From the NCBI RefSeq assembly GCF_000220175.1, contig NZ_AFPU01000001.1, positions 1,523,512-1,587,511 on the forward strand: a stretch of DNA of 64,000 bases, read 5' to 3'. Below the pieces are notes generated by a model. The model was not told the origin of the DNA. It ran no database searches and worked only from the letters and a program-made list of their open reading frames with translations. Origin of the DNA: Nitrosarchaeum koreense MY1. GTDB taxonomy: Archaea; Thermoproteota; Nitrososphaeria; Nitrososphaerales; Nitrosopumilaceae. This document shows positions 2,800-59,792 of the stretch, one piece after another. Each line of letters starts with the position of its first letter. Positions within the stretch are counted from its first letter, which is position 1. The position numbers and the translations under genes were made by a program.

Positions 2800-4122
2800 A
2801 TGGCAAAATCGTCAAATAAAGAATCTTACAATAAAATTTTCTCAAATTTAAAAGAACATCATAAATGGTTTGAAAATTCTATTCCATTAATTGCAAGTGA
2901 GAACATACCTAGTCCTGCTGTTAGAGAGGCAATAACATCAGATTTTGGAAATAGATATGCCGAAGGTTGGCCAGGTGAGAGAGTCTATGCAGGATGTGTG
3001 TACATTGATGAGGTTGAGTTTGAATGTATGAAGCTTGCAAAGAAGTTGTATAAGGCAAAATTTGCAGATGTAAGACCTATCTCTGGTGTGGTTGCTAATC
3101 TTGCAGTATATTCTGCTTTTACAAACCCAGGCGATGTAATGCTAGCACCTTCAATTCCTGCGGGAGGTCATATTTCTCATGGTAAGAAAGAACATTCAGG
3201 AACTGCCGGATTAGTTCATGGTTTGGAAATTGAATTTTATCCATTTGATGCAGAAGAGATGACAATTGATGTTGAAAAGACAAAACAGAAAGTTGAGGAA
3301 TTAAAGAAAGCGGGTAATCTGCCAAAAATGGCAATGTTTGGCGGATCGTTGTTTTTGTTTCCACATCCTGTTAAAGAATTAGCAGATTTTCTAAAGAGTT
3401 TTGATATGCATATCAATTATGATGCTGCACATGTTGCTGGATTAATTGCTGGTGGAAGATTTCAGGATCCATTACGAGAAGGTGCAGACACTATGACAAT
3501 GAGTACTCATAAAACTTTGTTTGGGCCACAAGGAGGACTTGTTTTAGGTTCTGAGAAACATGAAGAACCGATCAAGAAAGCAACATTCCCAGGATTAACT
3601 AGTAGTCATCACATTCATCATATGGCAGGTAAAGCAGTAGCATTTGCAGAAGCATTAGAATTTGGAAAAGATTACGCTAACCAAGTTATTAAAAATGCCA
3701 AAGTGTTTGCAGAATCACTTAATGACGCAGGTTTTAAAGTTCTAGGTGAAAAGAGAGGGTTTACTGAATCACATCAAATTGCTGTTAATGTTTTAGATTA
3801 TTCTGATGGAGGAAAAGTTGAAGCAGATTTAGAAAAAGCTAACATCATTGTAAATAGACAACTTATTCCAGGTGACATCAAAGCTGGTCGTAATTATTTT
3901 CATCCTGGAGGAATTAGACTAGGAGTTTCTGAAATTACTAGACTAGGCATGAAACAAAACGAGATGAAAGAGATTGCATCATATATCAAAGAGGTAATAA
4001 TTGATAAAAAAGATCCCAAGAAAATTCTTACAAAAGTAAAATCTTTTAGAAAGAATTATCAAAAAGTTCATTATTGTTTTGATAAAAAACTTGGGGCTTA
4101 TGAATACGTAAAATTAAGATAA
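2800..4122 (+). CDS. glyA: Serine hydroxymethyltransferase
   Basis: PLP enzyme interconverting serine and glycine with transfer of a one-carbon unit to a pterin carrier. Seen: IPLIASEN near the N-terminus, NRYAEGWPGERVYAG, INYDAAHVAGLIAGG (PLP-binding Asp/His region), and the lysine motif TMSTHKTLFGPQGG around residue 230, where the Lys carries PLP. C-terminal features (FHPGGIRLGVSEITR) also fit the family. At 440 residues the length is normal. A TTG nine bases upstream is in frame, but the TATA spacing favours the ATG used here. It ends 4 bases before the stop of the convergent PolD large subunit gene. Confidence 0.95.
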   Translation: MAKSSNKESYNKIFSNLKEHHKWFENSIPLIASENIPSPAVREAITSDFGNRYAEGWPGERVYAGCVYIDEVEFECMKLAKKLYKAKFADVRPISGVVANLAVYSAFTNPGDVMLAPSIPAGGHISHGKKEHSGTAGLVHGLEIEFYPFDAEEMTIDVEKTKQKVEELKKAGNLPKMAMFGGSLFLFPHPVKELADFLKSFDMHINYDAAHVAGLIAGGRFQDPLREGADTMTMSTHKTLFGPQGGLVLGSEKHEEPIKKATFPGLTSSHHIHHMAGKAVAFAEALEFGKDYANQVIKNAKVFAESLNDAGFKVLGEKRGFTESHQIAVNVLDYSDGGKVEADLEKANIIVNRQLIPGDIKAGRNYFHPGGIRLGVSEITRLGMKQNEMKEIASYIKEVIIDKKDPKKILTKVKSFRKNYQKVHYCFDKKLGAYEYVKLR

Positions 4123-24670: not shown

Positions 24671-25132
24671 TCAATTGTATGGGCTATATTGTTTGTAAAC
24701 TTTGATCACTGATTCATGATACATTTTTCTAATATCTTCATCTGTTGATATTGCAAGACGATTTACTAGATCTGTAGCAGTGATAATTCCTATAACTTTA
24801 TCATCTTCTATAATTGGTAGTTTACGAATACCTCTAGTATACATTAGATCAGCTACCATCCACACTGATTCATCAGGACCTATTGCAATTAGAGGAGTTG
24901 ACATAATCTGTTTTACTGGAGTCGTAATTTGATAAGCATGAGCTACAATCTTTACTGCAAAATCTCTATCTGTAATTATTCCTACAGGTGTATTATTTTC
25001 CATAACTATGATAGCTCCCACTTTTACATCTTCCATTAATTTTGCCGCTTCATTTACAGTAATTGTAGAATCTACTGCAATCACAGATTTTGTCATAATG
25101 TCTCTAACCGTAATTTTATCTGCATCAGTCAT
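24671..25132 (-). CDS. CBS-domain pair protein
   Basis: About 153 residues from ATG 25132, forming two CBS motifs (one Bateman module): VRDIMTKSVIAVDSTITVNE, AIIVMENNTPVGIITDRDFA, then VKQIMSTPLIAIGPDESVWM and GIITATDLVNRL. CBS pairs usually bind adenine nucleotides and act as energy sensors. The start at 25132 is supported by a TATA box (25158-25163) 28 bases away; the frame extends to 25183 but that part is not CBS-like. It lies divergent from the UspA gene at 25247, in an island of CBS and Usp proteins. Confidence 0.88.
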   Translation of the reverse strand: MTDADKITVRDIMTKSVIAVDSTITVNEAAKLMEDVKVGAIIVMENNTPVGIITDRDFAVKIVAHAYQITTPVKQIMSTPLIAIGPDESVWMVADLMYTRGIRKLPIIEDDKVIGIITATDLVNRLAISTDEDIRKMYHESVIKVYKQYSPYN

Positions 25133-25157
25133 TTTCAAATTATTATTGAATTTTCTG

Positions 25158-25163
25158 TATATA
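25158..25163 (-). promoter_or_regulatory. TATA box of the first CBS gene
   Basis: TATATA centred 28 bases before ATG 25132. It marks the start of a leaderless mRNA. Confidence 0.5.
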
Positions 25164-25246
25164 GTGGCTATGTACAATTTCATAGTTGAAAATCAAACTC
25201 GATAATGTTGTGATACTCTTAATTTCAGTTCTTTTATTAGTTAATT

Positions 25247-25669
25247 ATGAAAGATATTAAAAAAATACTTGTTCCTATTGATGGTTCTAAAAATTCTATG
25301 AGGGGATTGGATGAGGCAATTTATCTTGCAAGACAATGTCATGCAACAATTACAGGATTGTATGTAATTCCAATAGCAAAACCCTTAACAGATTCACAAA
25401 TTTCTTATCTGGAAAAATATTTACTGAATAACGCTTCAAAATTTATGTCAAAAGCGAAAATACGTTGTGGACAAAATGGCATTCTTTTTGATGATGATAT
25501 TGCTTATGGTGACGAAGGGCCAAAAATCATAAACTATGCAGAGAACAAAGCATATGATATTATTGTTATCGGATCTAGAGGAATGAGTTCTATTAAAGAG
25601 ACTTTTCTAGGAAGTACATCCAATTATGTTTTACACAAATCAAAAATTCCAGTGTTAATTGTAAAATAA
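25247..25669 (+). CDS. Universal stress protein (UspA), copy A
   Basis: 140 residues of the Usp fold: ILVPIDGSKNSMRGLDEAIY at the N-terminus and the ATP-binding signature IVIGSRGMSSIKETFLGSTS (G-x2-G-x9-GS type) near residue 105, ending VLHKSKIPVLIVK. Usp proteins of this class bind ATP and help survival under stress. The first 122 bases of the repeat (25254-25375), coding for residues 3 to 43, are identical to the inverted copy B at 26903-27325, while the rest differs. Same strand as the CBS gene at 25741. Confidence 0.92.
   Translation: MKDIKKILVPIDGSKNSMRGLDEAIYLARQCHATITGLYVIPIAKPLTDSQISYLEKYLLNNASKFMSKAKIRCGQNGILFDDDIAYGDEGPKIINYAENKAYDIIVIGSRGMSSIKETFLGSTSNYVLHKSKIPVLIVK
25254..25375 (+). 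repeat. 122-bp perfect inverted repeat, left copy
   Basis: Exactly identical, base for base, to the reverse complement of 27191-27312. It covers the N-terminal coding part of UspA copy A. The frame is the same in both copies, so recombination between them would make in-frame hybrids. Confidence 0.95.
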
Positions 25670-25740
25670 TCAATTATTCAGTTACTTTCTTGCATGAAAA
25701 TAAGGATCTTATTTATAAAAAGAAAATCATAGAAAATAAC

Positions 25741-26184
25741 ATGGCACATACATTTGTAAAAGATGTAATGATTAATGATTTAGCCACACTAGACGTGTCT
25801 ACTTCAATTAAAGATGCTGCAAAATTAATGGATGAAAAGAACATTGGTTGCATAATTGTAACTAAAAATCAGTTACCTGTAGGAATTTTAACCGAAAGAG
25901 ATTTCGTTAAACGCATAACTGCTAAAGAAAAACCACTATCTACAGTATTAGAAGAAGTAATGTCTTCACCGTTGATTGAAATAGACTCAAATGAAACAGT
26001 ATGGGAAGCTGCCCAAATTATGAAAATAAATAATATTCACAAATTACCTGTCAAAAAAGATAACCACATTATTGGAATTGTTACAACTACAGACTTAGTA
26101 AAAATTTGTAGTGTTGGTTCTGATTCAGAAATGAGGAGAATCTGTGATCAAATTATTACTAGAATGGAAAAAGAGAATTTTTGA
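25741..26184 (+). CDS. CBS-domain pair protein
   Basis: About 147 residues with two CBS motifs: VKDVMINDLATLDVSTSIKD, GCIIVTKNQLPVGILTERDF, VLEEVMSSPLIEIDSNETVW, HKLPVKKDNHIIGIVTTTDL. The frame opens at TTG 25690, but ATG 25741 (MAHTFVKDVM) directly precedes the first motif and is preferred. It lies downstream of UspA copy A on the same strand, inside the segment bounded by the 122-bp inverted repeat. Likely nucleotide sensing. Confidence 0.88.
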   Translation: MAHTFVKDVMINDLATLDVSTSIKDAAKLMDEKNIGCIIVTKNQLPVGILTERDFVKRITAKEKPLSTVLEEVMSSPLIEIDSNETVWEAAQIMKINNIHKLPVKKDNHIIGIVTTTDLVKICSVGSDSEMRRICDQIITRMEKENF

Positions 26185-26192
26185 GTTTAAAC

Positions 26193-26423
26193 ATGGTTTT
26201 TTCATATCATGTTATTAAATTTGAATCAATTTCGTTTTTACAAGGTACAAATTGGTCTCAATCAGTAGGAGATAAAGGAGTTTTATACAAATCACTTAAA
26301 GATCCTTATTCTAAATTGATAATTGAAACATCGGACAATTCAGAAAAATTATTTCATGTTCCTAAAGATAGAACAGTAATTGTTGTAAACAAAGTTGTTC
26401 ATTTTCTTGGAGAATTAGTCTAA
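26193..26423 (+). CDS. Small hypothetical protein
   Basis: About 76 residues from ATG 26193 (MVFSYHVIKFES), with mixed beta-strand character (VLYKSLKDPYSKLIIETSD, LFHVPKDRTVIVVNKVVHFL). No family is recognised. It is 8 bases after the CBS gene and convergent with the third Usp gene 3 bases away. Plausibly cotranscribed with the CBS gene. The frame can be read from TTG 26181, overlapping the CBS stop. Confidence 0.55.
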   Translation: MVFSYHVIKFESISFLQGTNWSQSVGDKGVLYKSLKDPYSKLIIETSDNSEKLFHVPKDRTVIVVNKVVHFLGELV

Positions 26424-26426
26424 GAA

Positions 26427-26903
26427 TTATCTAACTAATAATACTGGGCATTTAGCTAATTCTGAAACTTTTCTACTAGTACTTCCTAATGTTTTTAATT
26501 TACCAATTCCATGTAAACCATGACTACCAATTACTATTAATGAAATATTCTTTCTTTTTGCAAATTTCAAAATTTCATTTGTGACATTACCACATGTAAT
26601 ATGATATGATGCAGAAATCCCTTTCTCATTGCATCTTTTAATTGCTATTTTTAGCATTTTTTCTGAATATGCCATAACCGACTCTCTCCATTTTTTTATA
26701 GTCTCTTTTTCAGATTTTAGTTTAGTTAATCCTAACATTCCAGGTGGTGAAATATAATCTAGATAAATGACAGAAAATAGAAAAATCTCTGAATCAAGAT
26801 TATGTGCAAGCTCTATAACTCTAGTTAATGCTTTTATTGAATATTTAGAACCATCATATGGAACAAGGATTTTGGTTAGCATTTTTGAAAACATTATGAT
26901 CAC
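26427..26903 (-). CDS. Universal stress protein (UspA), copy C
   Basis: 158 residues: KILVPYDGSKYSIKALTRVI at the N-terminus and ATP-binding ISLIVIGSHGLHGIGKLKTL followed by GSTSRKVSELAKCPVLLV. An insertion (DYISPPGMLGLTKLKSEKET) follows the second strand. Start is GTG 26903, sharing one base with the stop of copy B (TAGTG), or an internal ATG (26894 or 26882). The two Usp genes are thus translationally linked. It differs from copies A and B in sequence and was not involved in the repeat. Confidence 0.9.
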   Translation of the reverse strand: MIIMFSKMLTKILVPYDGSKYSIKALTRVIELAHNLDSEIFLFSVIYLDYISPPGMLGLTKLKSEKETIKKWRESVMAYSEKMLKIAIKRCNEKGISASYHITCGNVTNEILKFAKRKNISLIVIGSHGLHGIGKLKTLGSTSRKVSELAKCPVLLVR

Positions 26904-27325
26904 TACTTTATGACTAATACCGGAATTTTTGATTTGTGTACCACAGCATTTGCAACACTACCTAAGAAAATTTCTTTTAATCCACTTTGACCTCTAGATC
27001 CGATAACAATAATATCAAATCCTTTTGCCATTTCATTAATTTCTATACTTGGACTTCCAAAAATTATTTTAGATTTAAACACAATTCCTTTTTCTGCACA
27101 TCTAGTCTTTGAAGATTGCATAAATTTTTTTGCTGATTTTGTAAGGTGCATCTGATATGGCATTATCGCATCACTAAAATTTCTTGGATATATTGGAATT
27201 ACATACAATCCTGTAATTGTTGCATGACATTGTCTTGCAAGATAAATTGCCTCATCCAATCCCCTCATAGAATTTTTAGAACCATCAATAGGAACAAGTA
27301 TTTTTTTAATATTTTTTCTAATCAT
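26903..27325 (-). CDS. Universal stress protein (UspA), copy B
   Basis: 140 residues, same class as copy A: ILVPIDGSKNSMRGLDEAIY and ATP-binding IIVIGSRGQSGLKEIFLGSV, ending VVHKSKIPVLVIK. The N-terminal coding part is identical in DNA to copy A for 122 bases (27191-27312), whereas the C-terminal two thirds are diverged. Exact identity at synonymous sites points to recent gene conversion or selection for recombination. It is first in a two-gene unit with copy C. Confidence 0.92.
   Translation of the reverse strand: MIRKNIKKILVPIDGSKNSMRGLDEAIYLARQCHATITGLYVIPIYPRNFSDAIMPYQMHLTKSAKKFMQSSKTRCAEKGIVFKSKIIFGSPSIEINEMAKGFDIIVIGSRGQSGLKEIFLGSVANAVVHKSKIPVLVIK
27191..27312 (-). repeat. 122-bp perfect inverted repeat, right copy
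   Basis: Reverse complement of 25254-25375 with no mismatch. It and the left copy bound a 1815-base segment holding a CBS gene, a small gene and the Usp copy C. Confidence 0.95.
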
Positions 27326-27389: not shown

Positions 27390-28247
27390 CTAGGCTTGTG
27401 CAATAGCATTTACGATATCTGCTTTCGTGATAATTCCAACTAGTTTTGTTTTTTTAACAACTGGTAATCCGCTAATTCCATTTCTAATCATTAATAATAC
27501 AGCTACTCCAACATCCTCACCAGCTTCAATTGTAATTGGATTTGACGACATTATATCAACAGCTTTGAAATGAAGAAGATGATTCATTTGATTTACTTGA
27601 AACTCATTAGGATTATTCATTTTATAATTTTCAACTTCTTTTGGATCAGCTGATTGAGATAACCAATAGGGTAATTTTGCTGGAACAAAATCTCTGTATG
27701 TGATAATTCCAACAGGAATTCTATTTCGCTGAATTACAATTCTTGAAATTCTATTATGAATTAACAAACTTTCTACATACAATAATGAATCTCCAGGCAT
27801 AGCAGTGATCACATTTCTAGTCATGATCTTTGAAACTTTTAGAGGTGAAATTGCATGTGTCAAAAAGATAGATGCAAGATCTGTTTTTGTAATTAAACCC
27901 TCCAGAATACCATTATTGCCTAATACAATGATGGATCCTATACGATTTTTTTTCATTAATCTAGCACAATCATAAATTGAATCTGTTTTCTTTACTGTGA
28001 TTAATTTTTTAGACATAAAACCAGAGACTTTGACAGATTTAATTGGTTTGTCACCAAGAGCATAGATAGTTTTTGCAATATCTTTTTCTGTAATTATTCC
28101 GATAGGGCATTTTTTTGAATCTATTACCACAAGTCGTTTTAAGTTATGTCTAAGTAAAATTTCTCTTGCATCTAATATACTTGCATTTGGACTAATTGTA
28201 ATGGTTTTTTTAATTATTTTATTTAGATCTGTATTTTTTAGTCTCAT
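27390..28247 (-). CDS. Four-CBS-motif protein
   Basis: 285 residues with four CBS motifs, visible from the repeated GIIT(E/K/Y)xD ending of each: SKKCPIGIITEKDIA, ILEGLITKTDLA, RIPVGIITYRDFV and TKLVGIITKADIV. A linker (AKLPYWLSQSADPKEVENYK) separates motifs 3 and 4. Such tandem Bateman modules bind adenine nucleotides. No catalytic or DNA-binding domain is present. Divergent from the CBS-HPF-like gene at 28370. Confidence 0.88.
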   Translation of the reverse strand: MRLKNTDLNKIIKKTITISPNASILDAREILLRHNLKRLVVIDSKKCPIGIITEKDIAKTIYALGDKPIKSVKVSGFMSKKLITVKKTDSIYDCARLMKKNRIGSIIVLGNNGILEGLITKTDLASIFLTHAISPLKVSKIMTRNVITAMPGDSLLYVESLLIHNRISRIVIQRNRIPVGIITYRDFVPAKLPYWLSQSADPKEVENYKMNNPNEFQVNQMNHLLHFKAVDIMSSNPITIEAGEDVGVAVLLMIRNGISGLPVVKKTKLVGIITKADIVNAIAQA

Positions 28248-55777: not shown

Positions 55778-55799
55778 GTAAAAAATTGATAATTTGTGT

Positions 55800-58700
55800 G
55801 TGATTAATAGAAATATTGGATTTGTTTTATCTACACTTTTGCTTGTTAGTTCTATGTTTTTCCCTTCTCTTCAAAATGTATATGCCGATGATACGATTAC
55901 AATTTCTACAGATACTGTTTATGCTACTGATCAAGTTTTAACTAACACTAAAATAATTATTCAAAATAATGCAAAACTGGAAATTGCATTTGGAACTACA
56001 ATTACATTGCAAAGATCTAGTATAGAGATTAAACCTGGTAGTGAACTCATAATTGATGGAACACTTTTGTTTACTACACCATTTCATAGTAAACAATATT
56101 TGTTAAATACAGGTACACTAAATTTACGATGTGGACTTTATCCAGCTCCCACAAGTGCATTTAGTTATACAAATTTTGGAATAGGAACTGTGATAGATTC
56201 AGCATGTCCGGGTAATGTAGATAAAATAATTATTGATGGTAATGATGTTAGCATACAAATTGGAGAAAATGCAACAATCCCTGTTGGTAGAGATGCAATT
56301 ATACTGCATACACTTTATGTAGCTGGATTAATTGATAATTTTGGTTCTGTCTCAAATCAAGGATTAGTAACTTTGGATAATGGTAAAGTTGTAAATTCTG
56401 GAACATGGACTAATGTATGCGATAATTTTGATTCTAGAGGTATTGTATCGTTAAATGGTGGAGTTTTTCAAGGAAATCCTGCAAAAAAAACTACTTGTGC
56501 ATTACCAATAGCTTTACCAGATAATTATTCTGTAGATGAAGATGGAATTCTTTTAGTCTCTACACTAAATGGAGTCCTAAAAAATGATAGTGATGCAGAT
56601 AGTCCAACTCTTTTAGTTACCTTGGATACTATTTTACCGAAATTCGGCATTGTTAATCTTAATTCAGATGGAAGTTTTGAATATGTTCCACAAACTGACT
56701 TTTTTGGAACTGATAAATTTTCATATAAAGTAGATGATGGAACTGATGGATTTGCTACAGCACTTGTTACAATTAATGTAATTCCTTCAAATGATCCACC
56801 AGTTGCAAATAATGATAGCATAACTGTGAATGAAGATTCATTGGCAACAAACATCAAAACTATCGTATTAAGTAATGATACAGATCCTGATGGCGATGTT
56901 TTAACAATAACTAGTGCAGGACTAACAACAATTCCTAAGGGACTTGTATCTGTTATAAATGGTCAATTAACTTATAACTCAAATTCACAATTTGAGTATC
57001 TTAAATCAGGACAAACAGGTACTGATTCATTTGAGTATACTGTTTCAGATGGACAATTGACTTCAACTGCTATAGTTACAGTGACAATAACTGGTCAAAA
57101 TGATAAGCCTGTAGCTTTACCAGATAATTATTCACTTAATCAAAATAGTGTATTATCTATCAGTGCTCCTGGATTGTTAGCTAACGATAGTGATATTGAT
57201 GGCAATACTCTCACTGCACTTTTTTATCTCCAACCACAATCAGGATCTGTTATAATTAATTCCGATGGTAGTTTTACTTATACTCCAAACATTGGTTTCT
57301 TTGGAACAGACACCATGTCGTATATTGTTTCTGATGGTATAATTAATCAATATGGAATAGGTGTTGTTACTTTTACAGTTATAGACGTAATTCCTCCTAT
57401 CATTATAGTAATTCCAATATCTGCTAACATTGAACTTGGTTCATCTCCACCCAGTCTCTTAAGCGGTGTAACCACAAACGATGGATCACCTATAACTGTC
57501 ACTGGTTCTGTAGATACTAACACAATAGGTGATTATGTAATCTATTATGATTCAACTGATATCAATGGTAATGCTGCAATTCAACAAAGTAGAACATATC
57601 ATGTTGTAGACACTGTTGCACCTAATGTGCCAGTAATTACATCTCCTGATGACGGTACATCCACATCTGATCCATCCCAAACAATTACAGGCACTTCTGA
57701 ACCAAACTCTACAATTGAAGTGTTTGTTAATGGTGCATCAACAGGTACAACAACAGCTAATTCTGCTGGAAACTGGTCCACTCAAATATCATTATCTGAA
57801 GGAACAAACATAGTTACTACAACTGCATTTGACGGTTTTAACACATCATCACCAAGTGAGCCAATTCATATCGTACTTGACACTGTTGCACCTATCATTA
57901 TAGTAATTCCAATATCTGCTAACATTGAACTTGGTTCATCTCCACCCAGTCTCTTAAGCGGTGTAACCACAAACGATGGATCACCTATAACTGTCACTGG
58001 TTCTGTAGATACTAACACAATAGGTGATTATGTAATCTATTATGATTCAACTGATATCAATGGTAATGCTGCAATTCAACAAAGTAGAACATATCATGTT
58101 GTAGACACTGTTGCACCTAATGTGCCAGTAATTACATCTCCTGATGACGGTACATCCACATCTGATCCATCCCAAACAATTACAGGCACTTCTGAACCAA
58201 ACTCTACAATTGAAGTGTTTGTTAATGGTGCATCAACAGGTACAACAACAGCTAATTCTGCTGGAAACTGGTCCACTCAAATATCATTATCTGAAGGAAC
58301 AAACATAGTTACTACAACTGCATTTGACGGTTTTAACACATCATCACCAAGTGAGCCAATTCATATCGTACTTGACACTGTTGCACCTATCATTATAGTA
58401 ATTCCAATATCTGCTAACATTGAACTTGGTTCATCTCCACCCAGTCTCTTAAGCGGTGTAACCACAAACGATGGATCACCTATAACTGTCACTGGTTCTG
58501 TAGATACTAACACAATAGGTGATTATGTAATCTATTATGATTCAACTGATATCAATGGTAATGCTGCAATTCAACAAAGTAGAACATATCATGTTGTAGA
58601 CACTGTTGCACCTAATGTGCCAGTAATTACATCTCCTGATGACGGTACATCCACATCTGATCCATCCCAAACAATTACAGGCACTTCTGAACCAAACTCT

Positions 58701-59792
58701 ACAATTGAAGTGTTTGTTAATGGTGCATCAACAGGTACAACAACAGCTAATTCTGCTGGAAACTGGTCCACTCAAATATCATTATCTGAAGGAACAAACA
58801 TAGTTACTACAACTGCATTTGACGGTTTTAACACATCATCACCAAGTGAGCCAATTCATATCGTACTTGACACTGTTGCACCTAATGTGCCAGTAATTAC
58901 ATCTCCTGATGACGGTACATCCACATCTGATCCATCCCAAACAATTACAGGCACTTCTGAACCAAACTCTACAATTGAAGTGTTTGTTAATGGTGCATCA
59001 ACAGGTACAACAACAGCTAATTCTGCTGGAAACTGGTCCACTCAAATATCATTATCTGAAGGAACAAACATAGTTACTACAACTGCATTTGACGGTTTTA
59101 ACACATCATCACCAAGTGAACCAATTCATATTACACTAACAGTTGTAAACTCACTTCTTCAACAAAAACTAGCCTTAATTGAACAATTAGAAAATTTGAT
59201 TAATTCAGCTCAAGATGATAAAACCAAAAAAGAACTTAAAAAAACAATTAAAGAACTTAGAAAAGGAGCTGATTCAAAACTTTATTCTCAAGATGGAAAC
59301 AGCTTTTTAGATAAAAAGAATGCAATAAAGGCTCTCAAATATGACAAACAAGGAATTAAACATCTAGTAAATATTTACCATAAAGGACACGAATCTAATT
59401 CATTCAAATCTGAATTAGCAGAAATTACTATTGAACTACTAAGAATTGACAAACAGCTAATCATCAACACTTACATTGGTACTCATAACTTACGTGAAGG
59501 AACTCTAGAAAACTTCATAAGTTCATTACGATATGTTGATGCCGAAACTAATTCTGAATTTGATGATGATCTTTCAGAATATGATGACAATATGATTGAA
59601 AACTTTGGTCAATCATGGAATAAAATAATACATGATAAAGACGCCAAAAAATTAGTTAAAGAAAAAATGTCATGGAAAGAATTTGTTGATAAATTAAAAT
59701 CTGAAGGAAAATGGGATAAGGCAGAAGAAAAAGCAGAAAAGAAGGCACAAAAGGCAGAAGAAAAAGCAGAAAAGAAAACACCTAAGAAATAA
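55800..59792 (+). CDS. Large modular surface protein (cadherin-like, DUF5011/Ig-like repeats)
   Basis: About 1330 residues from GTG 55800. Order: signal peptide (FVLSTLLLVSSMFFPSLQNV), a beta region to about 235, three cadherin-like/VCBS repeats (ALPDNYSVDEDGILLVSTLN; PPVANNDSITVNEDSLATNI; ALPDNYSLNQNSVLSISAPG), then three identical 165-residue units, each a DUF5011-like domain (ending GSVDTNTIGDYVIYYDSTD) and a bacterial Ig-like domain (SDPSQTITGTSEPNSTIEVF), plus a fourth Ig-like copy. The C-terminal 220 residues are helical and end in a Lys/Glu/Ala tract (EEKAEKKAQKAEEKAEKK). No sorting motif or TM helix is obvious. Role likely adhesion or S-layer-associated. The identical repeats could be collapsed or expanded in assembly. 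Confidence 0.88.
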   Translation: MINRNIGFVLSTLLLVSSMFFPSLQNVYADDTITISTDTVYATDQVLTNTKIIIQNNAKLEIAFGTTITLQRSSIEIKPGSELIIDGTLLFTTPFHSKQYLLNTGTLNLRCGLYPAPTSAFSYTNFGIGTVIDSACPGNVDKIIIDGNDVSIQIGENATIPVGRDAIILHTLYVAGLIDNFGSVSNQGLVTLDNGKVVNSGTWTNVCDNFDSRGIVSLNGGVFQGNPAKKTTCALPIALPDNYSVDEDGILLVSTLNGVLKNDSDADSPTLLVTLDTILPKFGIVNLNSDGSFEYVPQTDFFGTDKFSYKVDDGTDGFATALVTINVIPSNDPPVANNDSITVNEDSLATNIKTIVLSNDTDPDGDVLTITSAGLTTIPKGLVSVINGQLTYNSNSQFEYLKSGQTGTDSFEYTVSDGQLTSTAIVTVTITGQNDKPVALPDNYSLNQNSVLSISAPGLLANDSDIDGNTLTALFYLQPQSGSVIINSDGSFTYTPNIGFFGTDTMSYIVSDGIINQYGIGVVTFTVIDVIPPIIIVIPISANIELGSSPPSLLSGVTTNDGSPITVTGSVDTNTIGDYVIYYDSTDINGNAAIQQSRTYHVVDTVAPNVPVITSPDDGTSTSDPSQTITGTSEPNSTIEVFVNGASTGTTTANSAGNWSTQISLSEGTNIVTTTAFDGFNTSSPSEPIHIVLDTVAPIIIVIPISANIELGSSPPSLLSGVTTNDGSPITVTGSVDTNTIGDYVIYYDSTDINGNAAIQQSRTYHVVDTVAPNVPVITSPDDGTSTSDPSQTITGTSEPNSTIEVFVNGASTGTTTANSAGNWSTQISLSEGTNIVTTTAFDGFNTSSPSEPIHIVLDTVAPIIIVIPISANIELGSSPPSLLSGVTTNDGSPITVTGSVDTNTIGDYVIYYDSTDINGNAAIQQSRTYHVVDTVAPNVPVITSPDDGTSTSDPSQTITGTSEPNSTIEVFVNGASTGTTTANSAGNWSTQISLSEGTNIVTTTAFDGFNTSSPSEPIHIVLDTVAPNVPVITSPDDGTSTSDPSQTITGTSEPNSTIEVFVNGASTGTTTANSAGNWSTQISLSEGTNIVTTTAFDGFNTSSPSEPIHITLTVVNSLLQQKLALIEQLENLINSAQDDKTKKELKKTIKELRKGADSKLYSQDGNSFLDKKNAIKALKYDKQGIKHLVNIYHKGHESNSFKSELAEITIELLRIDKQLIINTYIGTHNLREGTLENFISSLRYVDAETNSEFDDDLSEYDDNMIENFGQSWNKIIHDKDAKKLVKEKMSWKEFVDKLKSEGKWDKAEEKAEKKAQKAEEKAEKKTPKK
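57396..57890 (+). repeat. 495-bp tandem repeat unit 1
   Basis: One unit: a 225-base A part (DUF5011-like, 57396-57620) and a 270-base B part (Ig-like, 57621-57890). Bases appear identical to units 2 and 3 by eye. Confidence 0.9.
57891..58385 (+). repeat. 495-bp tandem repeat unit 2
   Basis: Second copy, same length and phase as unit 1. The identity includes synonymous positions, which indicates very recent duplication or ongoing homogenisation. Confidence 0.9.
58386..58880 (+). repeat. 495-bp tandem repeat unit 3
   Basis: Third copy. It is followed at 58881 by a B part alone, so the array is A-B, A-B, A-B, B. Confidence 0.9.
58881..59133 (+). repeat. Terminal partial repeat (B part only)
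   Basis: Fourth copy of the Ig-like B part, identical up to the final bases (AGTGAACC instead of AGTGAGCC), where it diverges into the unique helical C-terminus. Confidence 0.85.

Follow-up and report, generated by a model that had tools for sequence, protein, structure and literature searches.

Apparent long-lived gene conversion, rather than an invertible switch, at an inverted repeat shared by two archaeal universal stress protein genes

Two convergent Usp genes carry the arms of an inverted repeat

The window (the whole 64,000-nt stretch of DNA that was analysed) belongs to a genome assembled as a single contig of 1.6 Mb and contains two convergent genes for universal stress proteins (Usp), UspA and UspB, whose 5' ends carry the arms of an inverted repeat. 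The Usp domain (PF00582) spans the full length of both proteins, and the three Usp genes of the locus and the surrounding CBS-domain genes are ordinary members of their Pfam families. The features of the locus are as follows (positions in the window):

24671..25183, minus strand: CBS1 (PF00571), flank on the UspA side and orientation linkage marker; adjoins UspA where the flank is covered in a relative
25247..25669, plus strand: UspA, open reading frame for a universal stress protein of 140 aa (PF00582, 105.6 bits), its 5' part forming one arm
25254..25375, plus strand: putative converted tract in UspA, an exact 122-nt arm, predicted to encode beta1-alpha1-beta2 (residues 8-43 of the UspB model)
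25547..25668, plus strand: second, weakly similar stretch in UspA, nucleotide-binding loop (repeat search, 75%; identical runs; codon profile)
25741..26184, plus strand: CBS2, CBS-domain gene between the arms, after UspA (PF00571, 94 bits), its place kept in relatives
26193..26423, plus strand: open reading frame of 76 aa without a Pfam family, between the arms and between CBS2 and UspC (ORF list, Pfam search)
26427..26894, minus strand: UspC, between the arms, after UspB (PF00582, 100.4 bits), seen in relatives
26903..27325, minus strand: UspB, open reading frame for a universal stress protein of 140 aa (PF00582, 104 bits), its 5' part forming the other arm
26904..27025, minus strand: counterpart of the second stretch in UspB (repeat search, 75%; identical runs; codon profile)
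27191..27312, minus strand: putative converted tract in UspB, an exact 122-nt arm in inverted orientation (repeat search, identical-run analysis)
27390..28247, minus strand: CBS4 (PF00571), flank on the UspB side and orientation linkage marker; located beside UspB in almost every relative with this flank covered

A preliminary description of this DNA had reported a perfect 122-bp inverted repeat with 1815 bp between its arms, and we recovered exactly this arrangement; with their edges, the arms reach 132 nt at 98% in the repeat search (25244-25375, plus; 27191-27322, minus). Open reading frames and alignment likewise uphold its statement that the repeat lies in the same frame in both genes. 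The further claim that identity in the repeat includes synonymous sites while the rest of the genes diverges is also sound, as all 38 codons for the same residue in UspA and UspB agree inside the tract, compared with 25 of 43 outside it, where nucleotide identity falls to 55%. The identical run is not due to chance, given that none of 2000 codon shuffles of the UspA/UspB alignment produced a run of 122 nt. The loops GSRGMSSIKETFLGS and GSRGQSGLKEIFLGS of UspA and UspB follow the pattern G-2x-G-9x-G-S, suggestive of the nucleotide-binding type, with a match to 1mjh. In the predicted fold of UspB (mean pLDDT 78), the main tract would form the beta1-alpha1-beta2 unit, residues 8-43.

The 5' parts are homogenised within genomes and the rest is not

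The UspA/UspB pair recurs, together with the CBS and UspC genes and the flanks, in about 23 species-level Nitrosarchaeum-like genomes, three of them single-contig. Relatives that carry a name consist mainly of MAGs from Nitrosarchaeum and other Nitrosopumilaceae, which places the window in an ammonia-oxidising member of the Nitrosarchaeum group. The position of the 76-aa open reading frame is kept in most, not all, relatives (50-97% identity). Within a genome, the 5' parts of UspA and UspB are 91-100% identical at the nucleotide level in 21 of 22 scorable pairs, or 94-100% once the deep branch G036 is set aside, compared with 52-61% for the rest of the two genes. In the tract core, same-residue positions use the same codon in 676 of 684 cases within genomes (excluding G029) as against 65% between genomes, and the corresponding values for the C part are 54% and 50%; for the 5' part, paralogs within a species are closer to each other than orthologs are between species, silent sites included. 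Differences between G000 and its nearest relative, G001, are few in the 5' part, and each new base is present in both copies of its species.

The excess of codon identity begins at the Ile codon before KKILVP and stops at GLYV(IPI), delimiting a tract of 105-126 bp whose borders are alike in all species according to sequence alignment, identical runs and the codon profile. The deeper branch G029 has retained both genes with 5' parts that are only 69% identical (46% at third positions), like its C part, and has either lost or never had the 5' homogenisation. The spacing between the two genes has grown to about 7 kb in G011 (L039 4233-11166) and to over 5 kb in G017 (L043), with 5' parts still 98-99% identical; because the identity persists in these widely spaced pairs, short spacing is not necessary for conversion. 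We also observed two irregularities. In G006 (L097, G006:C2:9500-10200), a 43-nt deletion shifts the frame of UspB precisely where the tract ends on its 3' side, reflecting either a mistake in assembly or a gene damaged by faulty repair. In G009 (L044, around position 3950), the run of A with which UspA begins seems to lack one base, so that the start codon is no longer in frame; a sequencing error in the homopolymer is a possible cause.

Trees of the two gene parts conflict

Phylogenies of the converted and unconverted parts were in conflict. In the tree of the 5' part, built on 117 tract columns, each UspA groups with the UspB of its own species, giving 22 of 22 possible label changes, at least 14 of which are required by strongly supported branches alone; forcing all UspA sequences together was 315 log units worse and was rejected (p-AU 1.4e-4). 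The tree of the C part splits all UspA from all UspB sequences at 100/100, with 1 label change as compared with 22. Based on this split, the duplication predates the species, and the 5' part was homogenised separately in the lineages. Both copies also keep their synteny across species, as befits such an early duplication. UspA and UspB are ancient, distinct paralogs whose convergent layout has been conserved.

Orientation of the segment and alternative explanations

Invertible DNA switches consist of inverted repeats around a segment, and the preliminary description had proposed that the Usp locus is one, with recombination between the arms inverting the 1815 bp that separate them, so that the C-terminal parts would trade places in frame and CBS2 and UspC would exchange promoters. 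The geometry permits this, as perfect inverted arms in the same frame surround the segment and an in-frame exchange is possible; moreover, the short-read assembly of G017 breaks within the repeat, and MAGs could hide minor forms. However, the order UspA(+) CBS2(+) ... UspC(-) UspB(-) was found in every genome with both genes on one contig, and in G005 and G017, where the genes are divided among contigs, the pieces fit the same layout. CBS1(-) lies on the UspA side and CBS4(-) on the UspB side wherever the flanks are covered (CBS4 was not seen in G029), and in every scorable genome an A-type C part is preceded by an A-type start context, just as a B-type C part is preceded by a B-type start (mostly MI(R/K)K..). 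A crossover between the arms would join the flank and start of UspA to the C part of UspB; this linkage is unchanged, although some species would be expected in the other state if the segment were switched. No alternative orientation was present among the assemblies of relatives, and genome searches placed the nearest tyrosine recombinase match (PF00589) about 360 kb away and returned no serine recombinase or invertase (PF00239), so that the locus differs from invertible switches both in having no recombinase nearby and in having no second orientation among relatives. We therefore regard the switch as very improbable and do not retain it, although inversion may occur at low frequency within a population. 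The preliminary description had set against the switch a single orientation in all reads and all related genomes, which we find in the assemblies, together with gradual decay of the repeat identity in relatives, which we do not find; every species instead shows refreshed 5' identity, an indication of conversion.

The main alternative to self-sustaining conversion is selection that keeps the two N-terminal beta1-alpha1-beta2 pieces identical as a common module with separate C parts, with non-crossover repair between the arms as the means. That the tract coincides with beta1-alpha1-beta2 and a second patch with the nucleotide-binding loop, and that the effect is confined to one of the Usp pairs examined, speaks for such selection; even so, we consider it unlikely, as selection at the protein level alone cannot hold silent sites identical in 676 of 684 codons, and the retention of both genes in G029 at 69% 5' identity indicates that identity is not indispensable. 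Purifying selection acting directly at the nucleotide level, such as on a regulatory or RNA element within the 5' coding region, might be suspected from the location of the tract at the start of both genes and its close similarity in the two, but is refuted by silent sites that diverge between species in the tract as they do in the rest of the gene (65% versus 63-65% same codons between orthologs); the tract sequence is thus free to change, but both copies change together. An assembly artefact or recent independent duplication is just as remote. Repeats of about 120 bp can disturb short-read assembly, the G017 contigs break there and the deletion in UspB of G006 lies at the border, but about 23 separately assembled genomes share the place, borders and synteny although the sequence itself differs from one to the next, which refutes this explanation for the overall pattern.

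Probable recurrent gene conversion limited to a subgenic tract

Taken together, the comparisons make it very probable that the pair undergoes subgenic concerted evolution by recurrent gene conversion, limited to the beta1-alpha1-beta2 unit (105-126 bp), and the locus appears not to be an invertible switch but a site of long-lived conversion that has operated independently in no fewer than 20 related species. The preliminary description had offered recent gene conversion as its second reading, of which conversion stands and mere recency does not, given this recurrence. We suggest that the first ~105-126 bp of UspA and UspB are repeatedly homogenised by non-reciprocal conversion without crossover, probably through synthesis-dependent repair that relies on RadA or through template switching during replication, an enzymatic route that we infer. 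The inverted arms would remain only just long and similar enough for pairing. Sequence flanking the tract is too diverged to pair, so the tract would not spread, and conversion restores the identity that conversion needs, so it would not decay; the island thus seems to sustain itself instead of owing its identity to selection. In seven genomes, the UspA codon at the 3' border is the B-type Ile (IPI), and the others, deeper branches included, have Leu, a pattern suggesting that copying here ran from UspB to UspA.

Crossover outcomes, in which the segment would be inverted and the promoters and C parts swapped, have not gone to fixation in any of the lineages sampled. As about 20 lineages are homogenised and none has a fixed inversion, inversions make up at most a small share of fixed outcomes. 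A possible reason is that crossing over between inverted copies, when these lie on sister chromosomes, would yield unresolvable products. No homogenised pair was found among the other Usp pairs examined, sister genera included, and a purely passive model leaves unexplained why one pair alone is homogenised among them. As a conversion partner, a third copy (G000:C1:1017044-1017120) was considered and rejected; it is 83% identical over 77 nt, but only 51% at third positions over the whole 5' part.

A second, weaker patch over the nucleotide-binding loop appears to be converted now and then in relatives. It covers codons 99-113 (YDIIVIGSRG), with same-codon rates of 0.80 vs 0.61 and 0.65 vs 0.45 between genomes, and contains identical runs between UspA and UspB of 57 nt in G013 and 70 nt in L076. 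On the UspB model, the patch is predicted, at low confidence, to be a strand and loop (residues 105-123).

Comparison with known cases of concerted evolution

Domain-limited, long-lasting gene conversion has been described for mtrA-1/mtrA-2 of methanogens (Wang et al. 2015, PMC4632066). Like the Usp pair, these are archaeal paralogs with conserved synteny in which one domain has been homogenised per species over the long term and the other part differs, and for which a tree placing orthologs together is rejected. In mtrA, however, the whole MtrA domain is converted between copies in one operon, whereas the Usp tract covers only ~105-126 bp within a single domain, and the genes that bear it converge, lie 1-7 kb from each other and carry it in inverted orientation. 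Long-lasting recurrent concerted evolution has also been reported for 26 prokaryotic genes, of which many belong to key pathways (Wang and Chen 2018, PMC6053082), with the same features of same-species paralogs closer than orthologs, many species and conserved synteny; the main text of that study names neither Usp nor Thaumarchaeota. In yeast, the arms of inverted repeats are homogenised by template switching (Abraham and Hazkani-Covo 2021, PMC8604942), and there, as at the Usp locus, the arms are made identical mostly without inversion of the spacer, although the yeast arms measure 7-16 bp with spacers of up to 70 bp, compared with arms of ~120 bp and 1.3-7 kb for Usp. A search of the open-access literature yielded no account of conversion between Usp genes in these archaea. 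Long-term, domain-limited conversion in archaea is therefore already known, and what is new is the Usp case, with its very short tract, inverted layout and wide sampling.

The Usp locus provides a clean natural record, from an archaeal group with little genetics, of how homology of only ~105-126 bp can keep paralogs converting one another while a genus radiates. It also allows conversion and crossover to be compared at one inverted repeat over many lineages, with many conversions and no fixed inversion, and it serves as a warning that whole-gene Usp trees and short-read assemblies across such repeats can mislead.

Elsewhere in the window (55794-59792, plus strand), a secreted-looking repeat protein of 1332 aa is encoded, whose repeats (57391-59131) comprise three tandem 495-nt (165-aa) units with 99-100% DNA identity and a shorter fourth copy of 263 nt; the 495-nt units represent a very recent in-frame expansion or homogenisation.
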